Below, piece after piece: positions 17,610-19,508 of a stretch of 46,904 bases of DNA; position 1 is the first letter of the stretch; each line of letters opens with the position of its first letter. The notes under the pieces were generated by a model. That model saw only the letters and a list, made by a program, of their open reading frames with translations, was not told the origin of the DNA and did no database searches. The stretch comes from a virus: positions 1 to 46,904 of the IMG/VR virus record IMGVR_UViG_3300041991_000054. One strand, written 5' to 3'. Position numbers and translations under genes: made by a program.

Positions 17610-18100
17610 AACCATTCAAGCATGAATGGAGTGAGATCAAGTGGAAGATTGCGCGGCAGATCTTTTCCTCCCATCCATTTCATGTACTGAATCGCGGTTG
17701 TTCCGTTTGCGTCCTGCGGAATGTTTCCCGTGCGAATCATTTGCGCGACTGCCCCCATTCCGACTAGGTGAGCGGCAGCAACAAGGCCCGATGCCGTGAG
17801 CGGAATGCCCGCGATTTCAGCCCCCATTTTTGAAGCATATCGTCGATCGATAGTCCGCAAATGCTGGGCAACATGGACCGCAAACGTTGCATCTTGCAGC
17901 TTGGAATCGCGCAAAAACTTTTCGTCATAGAGGCCCCAACGCCAGCCGGTGATATCGATCAGGCCGAGGTCAGTCAAACGCATTTTTCCAAATTGATATC
18001 GCCCCAAAAACCCAAATTGATTGACCACGCCATAGCGTCCCGAGCTTTCATGAATAGCCAATAGCTCGCGAAATGCGATATAGTCTTTTAGGTCAATCAT
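17600..18100 (-). CDS. Peptidoglycan hydrolase (lysozyme/transglycosylase-like), probable endolysin
   Basis: 166 aa from the ATG at 18100; a longer frame starts at 18151. Residues 15-40 (AIHESSGRYGVVNQFGFLGRYQFG) match the active-site region of lytic transglycosylase or lysozyme-like enzymes, with Glu18 the probable catalytic acid. No signal peptide and no separate wall-binding domain are seen, so export would depend on a holin. It is separated from the late minus genes by the inserted (+) protease cassette. Likely the endolysin; a virion-associated hydrolase is the alternative. Confidence 0.75.
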   Translation of the reverse strand: MIDLKDYIAFRELLAIHESSGRYGVVNQFGFLGRYQFGKMRLTDLGLIDITGWRWGLYDEKFLRDSKLQDATFAVHVAQHLRTIDRRYASKMGAEIAGIPLTASGLVAAAHLVGMGAVAQMIRTGNIPQDANGTTAIQYMKWMGGKDLPRNLPLDLTPFMLEWLKK

Positions 18101-18113
18101 GCTTAAACTCTCA

Positions 18114-18142
18114 TTGTTGGTTTTTCGGTTGGGAGTTATTCT
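18114..18142 (+). promoter_or_regulatory. Weak candidate promoter of the protease cassette
   Basis: TTGTTG (18114-18119) and TATTCT (18137-18142) with 17-bp spacing precede an AAAGGAGG site and the ATG at 18173. The -35 is poor. The cassette runs against the late genes and so should need its own start. Confidence 0.3.
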
Positions 18143-18172
18143 TATTTCCAACTTAACAAAAGGAGGTTTGTT

Positions 18173-19117
18173 ATGCGAGTGTTTTTGGCTTCACTAGCTC
18201 TAGCATGGGCAAGTGTGGCAAGTGCGGAAACTTATATCGGGGCGGACGGCCCCACTTTTCAAGTCGAAACGGGGGTTCGTTCTGCGCCTCACGCGATGGG
18301 ACTGATTGTTCCCAAAGAATGGGGCTCCAAAATGCAACGCGCCGATTTGCTTCCACCGATGGAAGCCCTTCCGGCGAAATTTTCCTGGGCTGATAAATTG
18401 ACCCCGATTCGCGATCAGGGTTCCTGCGGTTCGTGCTGGGCTTTTTCTGCGACTGCGACAATTTCCGACGTGCTCGCAATTCACGGCAAGGGCGCATTGG
18501 ATTTGTCCGAGCAATACATGGTTTCCTGCGATAAGGAATCTAGTGGCTGCGGCGGCGGTTGGTTTGATAGCGCATTTGAATTGGTGCGCATGAATGGCGA
18601 GGTCATTGAATCTGCTTTTCCCTACACGGCGAGCAATCAACGATGCCCCGCATCATTGCCCCATACCTACAAGATTTTGTCCTGGCATTCGTTGTCCTCA
18701 GGTGTAGCTAGTGTCAATCAAATCAAAAACGCGATCTATACCTACGGGCCGATCAGCGTTGCCGTCGCCGTTGCGGGAAAATTCCAAAACTACAAGTCCG
18801 GCATATATAATGAATCCGCTTCCGGGTCAGTTAACCATGCTGTGAACCTTGTTGGCTGGGACGACACGACTTCTCCGCCTAGCTGGGTTATGCGCAATTC
18901 CTGGGGCCCAAGTTGGGGGGAAAAAGGTTATATGCGAATCGCCTATGGCTCGCGTAAAATCGGATACGCCGCTTCCTATGTTGACTTCGCGGGCCCGGTT
19001 CCCCATGTAAACCCTACTCCTGGTCCGAGCCCGACGCCTCCGACGCCGCCGAGTCCGGACCCTAATCCTTGCGAATGTACGTTTTGGGGCTGGCTTGCAA
19101 CTGTTTTCAAAATTTAA
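18173..19117 (+). CDS. Secreted papain-like cysteine protease (C1 family)
   Basis: 314 aa. Residues 1-18 are a Sec signal peptide ending ASVASA. The mature enzyme has the complete C1 set: Gln82 and Cys88 in DQGSCGSCWAFS, His222 in VNHAV and Asn242 in RNSWG. The pre-catalytic region (19-68) is short compared with the usual inhibitory propeptide. A Pro-rich linker (about 281-299) leads to CECTFWGWLATVFKI, a short aromatic-hydrophobic tail that might anchor it. A strong AGGAGG site lies upstream. Phage-encoded C1 proteases with a signal peptide are unusual; possible roles are envelope damage at lysis, processing of surface proteins, or action after release. Confidence 0.92.
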   Translation: MRVFLASLALAWASVASAETYIGADGPTFQVETGVRSAPHAMGLIVPKEWGSKMQRADLLPPMEALPAKFSWADKLTPIRDQGSCGSCWAFSATATISDVLAIHGKGALDLSEQYMVSCDKESSGCGGGWFDSAFELVRMNGEVIESAFPYTASNQRCPASLPHTYKILSWHSLSSGVASVNQIKNAIYTYGPISVAVAVAGKFQNYKSGIYNESASGSVNHAVNLVGWDDTTSPPSWVMRNSWGPSWGEKGYMRIAYGSRKIGYAASYVDFAGPVPHVNPTPGPSPTPPTPPSPDPNPCECTFWGWLATVFKI

Positions 19118-19130
19118 AGGAAAATGAATC

Positions 19131-19454
19131 ATGCTCAAGGAAACCACTGATCTAGTTATCTTGGTCGCTCGCCTCGCGAATGGTGTTTCAAAATCGCTTG
19201 AGGACGGCAAAATCTCAATGGGGGACGCTTTAAATTTCGTTCCGGCCCTTGTTGCCATCCCATCGGCTATCGCGAATTGCAGCGAGATTCCGACTGAATT
19301 GATGAACGCTACACCGGAAGACAAGGACGAATTGTTGGATTCATTCAAACGCGAGTTTTCGATTGACAATGCTTCAGCCGAAGCCATGATCGAAAAAGTG
19401 ATTGAATTTATCGTCGCATTCTGGAAACTTCTCAAAACGCAGAAAATCGCCTAA
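19131..19454 (+). CDS. Small helical protein paired with the papain-like protease
   Basis: 107 aa, almost entirely helical. The pattern (VARLANGVSKSLEDGKISMGDALNFVPAL, then an acidic segment, then a hydrophobic C-terminal helix FIVAFWKLLK) resembles small phage proteins of unknown role found near structural or lysis genes. It lies 13 nt after the protease stop and shares its terminator, so the two form a cassette. It could be an accessory membrane-active protein; uncertain. Confidence 0.75.
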   Translation: MLKETTDLVILVARLANGVSKSLEDGKISMGDALNFVPALVAIPSAIANCSEIPTELMNATPEDKDELLDSFKREFSIDNASAEAMIEKVIEFIVAFWKLLKTQKIA

Positions 19455-19508
19455 AATAAAGCTAGGCGATTCTGTTCTCTCCTGACCCTCGCGCAAGCGG
19501 GGGTTTTT
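19445..19508 (+). terminator. Double-hairpin terminator of the protease cassette
   Basis: A perfect 9-bp stem AATCGCCTA/TAGGCGATT (19445-19453, 19463-19471) begins in the last codons. A second stem CCCTCGC/GCGGGGG with a GCAA tetraloop (19486-19503) is followed by five T. The second is a standard intrinsic terminator for the + strand. Confidence 0.85.

Follow-up and report, generated by a model that had tools for sequence, protein, structure and literature searches.

A predicted exported papain-like protease unit inside the lysis region of a small myovirus

Results

The stretch of DNA analysed here, called the window, is a virus record of 46,904 bases, and the features of the locus under study are collected in Table 1. 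A gene for a papain-like (C1) cysteine protease and a short gene, ORF2, form an isolated plus-strand pair inside the lysis region, antisense to the late genes. The pair is oriented head-to-head with an endolysin-like gene and tail-to-tail with minus-strand late genes. The endolysin-like gene product matches phrog_27932 (tail lysozyme, 2.9e-14) and phrog_26675 (endolysin, 0.003) in PHROG. On the other side lie a possible i-spanin and two more small membrane-like proteins, for which Pfam and PHROG gave no family match. ORF2 starts 13 bases past the protease and is followed by two strong hairpins. The initial annotation had described a two-gene unit with its own ribosome binding sites, running against the late genes between the hydrolase and the small membrane proteins. 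Both open reading frames are indeed present between these flanks, with the ribosome sites AAAGGAGG for the protease and AAAGGAA for ORF2.

Table 1. Positions of the features at the protease locus in the window, and of the related enzyme cluster in other phages
Feature	Position	Strand	Basis or remark
Endolysin-like hydrolase	17600..18100	-	ATG start; TTG start at 18151; head-to-head with protease
Candidate promoter TTGTTG-N17-TATTCT	18114..18142	+	By eye and script, in 72-bp spacer
Papain-like (C1) cysteine protease, 314 aa	18173..19117	+	PF00112, PDB matches, fold match
Predicted Sec signal peptide, residues 1-18, ending ASVASA	18173..18226	+	Read directly off sequence; hydrophobic peak at residue 4
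Short pro-region, residues 19-65	18227..18367	+	Alignments
C1 catalytic domain, residues 66-264	18368..18964	+	Q82/C88/H222/N242 and Cys of two papain disulfides
Pro-rich linker	18980..19066	+	Residues 270-297 are 43% Pro
C-terminal tail PCECTFWGWLATVFKI	19067..19114	+	Read from sequence
ORF2, 107 aa, predicted five-helix protein	19131..19454	+	Lysis-region family
Hairpin 1	19440..19474	.	Terminator-like on minus strand
Hairpin 2, G/C stem into TTTTT (plus-strand terminator)	19484..19505	+	Folding; unflagged by consensus scan
Small membrane/coiled-coil protein, possible i-spanin	19508..19780	-	phrog_739 Rz-like, E=0.011, weak
Two more small membrane-like proteins (19777-20040 and 20024-20146)	19777..20146	-	ORF list, hydropathy
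Amidase_2 - C1 - HExxH-type metalloprotease - often SNase	L103:4558-7374; L085:8802-11616 (-)		Also L127, L128, L130, L132, L133, L142

The spacer between the ATG codons of the protease and the endolysin-like gene is 72 bp long (18101-18172). A promoter consensus scan gave candidates no more numerous than in shuffled sequences, so the candidate promoter in this spacer is not above chance. The double hairpin (19440-19505) folds at -29.7 kcal/mol with z=-4.8. It had been taken for one terminator of the unit, which holds for hairpin 2 with its T-run on the plus strand, while hairpin 1 is terminator-like on the minus strand. Together the two hairpins look like back-to-back insulation. Because hairpin 1 resembles a minus-strand terminator, transcription of the endolysin may depend on a separate promoter inside the spacer, and the endolysin and the protease may then share one control region there. 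The base composition of the protease gene (GC 0.532, GC3 0.537) is inside the range of the other window genes and gives no signal of a recent import.

The protease matches PF00112 with E=9.4e-60, and PF00112 and PF03051 are the sole families reported by Pfam. Solved papains and cathepsins also match (best 1.8e-40 in the PDB comparison). The AF2 model has a mean pLDDT of 68.7; the catalytic domain is mixed, from about 49 to 95 by block, and the ends are modelled with little confidence. Foldseek matched the predicted fold to rhodesain (E=1.7e-20) and cathepsin K (E about 1e-20) with a TMt of about 0.8. As modelled, the catalytic domain adopts the papain fold. In the alignment the C1 active-site set, Q82, C88, H222 and N242, is intact, and from their positions C85/C126 and C119/C158 would form the two canonical papain disulfides. 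The I29 inhibitor propeptide is common, not obligatory, in peptidase family C1; Pfam reported no domain of this type in the window protease, whose pro-region has 47 residues. The pro-region carries a motif G-L-x-V-P-K-x-W in common with phage and Oligoflexia homologues. The C-terminus is CECTFWGWLATVFKI. The Pfam match and the reading of the sequence thus bear out the initial description of a papain-like protease with a Sec signal, a Gln-Cys-His-Asn set, a Pro-rich linker and a CEC-aromatic tail. It is apparently a working, exported C1 enzyme. No holin, peptidoglycan-hydrolase or spanin domain was found in it (PF00112) or in ORF2, which has no family match.

The AF2 model of ORF2 consists of five helices and is confident (pLDDT 83.9), and no PDB fold match was obtained below E=0.76. 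A single-sequence search found no homologues; the family emerged only through neighbourhood clustering. It comprises ORF2 of the window and genes at L145, L157, L158, L160, L167 and L177, with that of the phage G002 joined by transitive similarity, and the members have a motif DGK(I/V)xxxD in common. In BLASTP within this small set ORF2 matched L158 (E=6.5e-12) and L177 (3e-7). Family members occur in 17 of the 44 searched records at E<=0.01, some of them by weak matches. They lie close to a C1 gene in all six of the other loci named, several together with tail-fibre or spanin-like genes. The pairing with the protease recurs in other phages, as in G398, and is loose, because the family also occurs without a protease (G002). 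That ORF2 is dedicated to the protease, as its partner or inhibitor, was considered and rejected as the default reading: the lysis regions in which the family is found may have C1 or lack it, its genes are on either strand, and no PDB fold matches. By its sequence relationships ORF2 is a member of an independent lysis-region family.

The window encodes a contractile tail, a portal, a terminase, head genes, a primase, a helicase and PolA, and the phage is a small myovirus. By tblastn 22 of its proteins, including packaging, head and tail genes, match Bdellovibrio phage phi1422. The nearest cultured MCP is that of phi1422 (210 bits), and Aaphi23 follows with 70 bits. Closer uncultured relatives are G002, G003, G004/G005, G006, G009 and G013 (MCP 52-55%). 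The small myoviruses of the phiPLPE group, to which phi1422 belongs, have diverse Proteobacteria as hosts (PMC3391216). In view of this diversity a Bdellovibrio-like host is no more than plausible for the window phage. No phi1422-type MCP was found in 58 Oligoflexia genomes or three other genomes, and no integrase or repressor among the window proteins scanned.

Several other features of the window were observed. A 14-bp palindrome, TGGTCCATGGACCA, occurs in six copies (up to 1 mismatch) at the ends of the record, in 13-80 and 46809-46886, while 0.15 matches would be expected in the whole window (up to 2 mismatches). The copies probably form one array, of iterons or operators, that the assembly of a circular or permuted genome has cut in two. 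A tail fibre (20501-23599) has long Gly-Pro-Thr collagen-like repeats and a C-terminus that by eye is peptidase_S74-like (intramolecular chaperone). In the early region 5682-6416 has a weak radical-SAM-like PHROG match (E=3e-6).

The closest homologue of the window protease, 57% identical, is the L124 protease of G368, a complete phage (37,347 bases, 127-base end repeat) that is unrelated to the window phage. It ends PCEPCTFWRWIKNLFD, so that the CTFWxW tail is common to both. The L124 protease, too, is the first of two plus-strand genes that form a unit surrounded by minus-strand genes. Its stop is followed 12 bases on by a small secreted Cys/Asp/Gly-repeat peptide behind AGGAGG, and then by a strong palindromic terminator. 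The L124 unit is located among early/replication genes, outside the lysis region, about 6 kb from an NlpC/P60-like endolysin (assigned by eye). Moron-like mobility is best supported by this copy, in an unrelated phage and at another genome position, whose distance from the endolysin also speaks most strongly against an obligate role in lysis.

Cys-rich secreted peptides or lipoproteins were seen directly downstream of C1 at L124 (about 6964-7200), L163:7074-7328 and L177:1836-2267; L163 and L177 additionally encode a TlpA/thioredoxin-like lipoprotein. These proteins are possibly redox or metal partners of the cysteine protease.

Related proteases were found on 57 IMG/VR contigs in one alignment-based scan. 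Among the MCP relatives of the window only G004/G005 carry C1. The genomes of phi1422, G002, G006 and G013 lack it, with the proviso that the contigs from uncultured phages can be incomplete. A spanin-like ORF (35418-35702) of G002 adjoins an endolysin-like ORF (35783-36919) with no protease between them, and in G006 a reprolysin-like metalloprotease lies downstream of the endolysin; this metalloprotease (L090:9814-11409) has a W_rich_C domain and follows a glucosaminidase/amidase endolysin. The protease is thus not a fixed late lysis gene in the closest relatives, most of which lack it. The description of the unit as moron-like is supported by its autonomous opposite-strand position, its absence between the same neighbours in relatives and its horizontal transfer, as seen in the homologue in G368; deviant base composition, also a moron trait, was not found.

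In G398, which shares TerL (52%) and portal (48%) with the window, C1 and ORF2 lie together close to the lysis/tail-fibre end. A single clade uniting the C1 proteins of the window, G004 and G398 was rejected (AU p=3.6e-5), which points to more than one acquisition in this phage group, barring hidden paralogy. The C1 tree interleaves phage and bacterial sequences with 7 changes, at least 6 of them forced by supported branches, and the catalytic residues are intact in the aligned phage copies. As to the donor, the nearest full-length relatives with the same start in the bacterial genomes searched are from Oligoflexia (L050, L113, L114), most with a C-terminal Ig-like domain. The 284 Myxococcota genomes searched yielded no C1 relatives at E<=1e-85. 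In deposited phages the only homologues of the window protease are in 5 unannotated human-faecal records (23-28% identity), and the G004 protease has no close homologue there.

Two arrangements of C1 genes were distinguished from ORFs that were called mechanically, on IMG/VR contigs that may include errors. In the first, found in about ten phages, an Amidase_2-type gene and C1 follow one another on one strand with short gaps, joined in most cases by a gene for a secreted HExxH-type metalloprotease and in many by an SNase-like gene. The amidase adjoins C1 on the same strand in G004, L103, L126-L128, L130, L132, L133, L134 and L142, mostly 11-48 nt upstream, and overlaps it in L126 and L128; the metalloprotease usually lies 53-88 nt downstream. 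The C1 protein is here often a predicted lipoprotein. This could be a multi-enzyme exit cluster. In the second arrangement C1 stands alone or nearly so, often antisense, beside ORF2-family, spanin-like or tail-fibre genes (L145, L157, L158, L160, L167) or away from them (L124, L152).

Within 1.5 kb of C1, at least four classes of peptidoglycan hydrolase are represented among 149 nearest-neighbour ORFs from 43 loci: Amidase_2 11, a few M15/VanY, one phage lysozyme and one GH108. Among the families listed there are about 16 hydrolases near C1 and none in 149 control ORFs 2.8-5.6 kb away (Fisher p=2e-5), a value that is only indicative: most of the 11 amidase neighbours belong to phages related to one another, related phages are counted several times, and the control is the best 25 families listed.

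Other secreted proteins were noted in these phages. GH5 cellulase-like proteins are encoded at L085:7386-8840 (Pfam) and L104:1943-3372 (by similarity), in phages also with the C1 cluster. A secreted family of about 230-255 aa adjoins C1 in L145, L160, L162, L167 and L175. Lipoprotein-like CDSLGFTAL...SKDMF proteins lie near tail fibre and lysis genes (L145:7558-8430, L157:9039-9920, L162:7709-8551), and the L157 copy had no match among deposited phages.

Discussion

The preferred reading, to which we give nearly even chances on the sequence evidence, is that of a mobile, autonomously transcribed accessory C1 protease, exported by Sec and most likely serving lysis or release. The protease would be made as a zymogen, exported, and kept waiting in the periplasm behind its short pro-region. 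It would then cut envelope or other extracytoplasmic proteins while the endolysin and the spanin open the cell, so that proteolysis complements peptidoglycan cleavage and frees the virions. In this scheme late expression, activation, substrate and benefit are what we infer. The intact catalytic set, the Sec signal and the Cys positions for extracytoplasmic disulfides are consistent with it, as are the position of the gene between the endolysin-like gene and the small membrane proteins, the repeated adjacency of C1 to peptidoglycan hydrolases in other phages, and its repeated, independent capture. Against it stands the closest homologue, far from its endolysin. Late expression cannot be taken for granted for a gene that runs against the late genes, as that of the window protease does, and since most close relatives lack C1, the enzyme is not essential to lysis. 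The initial annotation had proposed attack on envelope proteins during lysis, a change of the host surface against superinfection, or action on grazers or competitors; the amidase adjacency in about ten phages and the hydrolase enrichment now favour lysis or release over lysogenic conversion.

A moron acting during infection would have no part in lysis: the exported protease would shave receptors or surface proteins and so block superinfection, or remodel the envelope. The autonomous opposite-strand unit with its strong ribosome site fits this, as do the early/replication position of the L124 copy and the many phage C1 homologues that are predicted lipoproteins, suited to surface anchoring. 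We consider it unlikely, however, in view of the recurrent amidase or endolysin neighbours of C1. A benefit in a lysogen is improbable with no integrase among the scanned proteins, and the outer-surface receptors of a Gram-negative cell could be reached only if the enzyme crossed the outer membrane.

It is likewise unlikely that the protease is an exoenzyme, part of a digestive cocktail (amidase, papain, metalloprotease, nuclease and, in some phages, a GH5 glycosidase) freed at lysis to degrade debris or, in a Bdellovibrio-like host, what is left of the invaded prey and its wall, for virion exit. The amidase-C1-metalloprotease-nuclease clusters with secreted GH5 nearby would agree with such a role, and so would the kinship with phi1422 in 22 proteins and in the MCP, and the full-length bacterial relatives in Oligoflexia and not, at the threshold used, in Myxococcota. 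However, the host is only inferred and phages of the phi1422 type infect diverse Proteobacteria (PMC3391216); no head gene of this type was present in the 58 Oligoflexia genomes, phi1422 itself lacks C1, and the window carries the protease without the rest of the cocktail. A broader proposal, which appears rather improbable, is that phages infecting Bdellovibrio-like predators have captured secreted papains time and again and built them into amidase-papain-metalloprotease-nuclease clusters. Such clusters would break down the host envelope and, for a phage whose predator host grows inside its prey, whatever is left of the prey cell, letting virions escape two nested cells. A last alternative, that a secreted protease of bacterial origin was gained by recombination as neutral or transient cargo with no phage function, would account for the patchy presence and the phage-bacterial interleaving (7 changes) but is very unlikely, given the intact catalytic residues in the aligned phage copies, the tail conserved between the window and L124, and the repeated independent capture with positional enrichment.

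Both C1 peptidases and morons are already known. The secreted C1 proteins of Oligoflexia resemble the window protease in the Q/C/H/N set, the papain-type Cys positions, the signal peptide and a short pro-region with G-[LF]-x-V-P-x-x-W. The window protease differs from peptidase family C1 in general by a pro-region of about 47 aa without I29 and by being phage-borne, and from most relatives by a Pro-rich linker and CECTFWGW tail in place of the C-terminal Ig-like domain. Like phage morons, the unit is autonomous, on the opposite strand, patchy and common to unrelated phages. Unlike them, it is accompanied by no sign of lysogeny, its base composition is not foreign, and C1 is often beside lysis genes.

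Lysis by phages of Gram-negative bacteria proceeds through membrane, wall and outer membrane, and to our knowledge the scheme as taught has no dedicated protein-digesting enzyme. Mycobacteriophage LysB and the spanins are similar to the window protease in being encoded near the endolysin and in having a target other than peptidoglycan, which for the protease is proposed. However, LysB is an esterase and spanins are membrane fusers, and any need for the protease in lysis is hypothetical. A 2025 paper that catalogues viral lytic proteins names neither papain nor cysteine proteases in its text (PMC12596118). A search of the open-access literature turned up neither a C1 protease reported from the lysis region of a phage nor a description of a recurrent lysis-linked phage papain or of the amidase-papain-metalloprotease-nuclease cluster. 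The nearest lead there comes from the Leptospira TA-TA prophages, whose lysis module contains a predicted cysteine protease that adjoins a holin/antiholin pair and was read as a putative endolysin (PMC8705779); the likeness to the window protease lies in its description as a cysteine protease. The intact active site of an exported papain, its capture on several occasions and its repeated placement beside endolysins point to a selected function and suggest a little-noticed protein-digesting step in the exit of some phages from their hosts. The phage papains offer a small enzyme family for studying envelope disruption, and their role in progeny release is directly testable.
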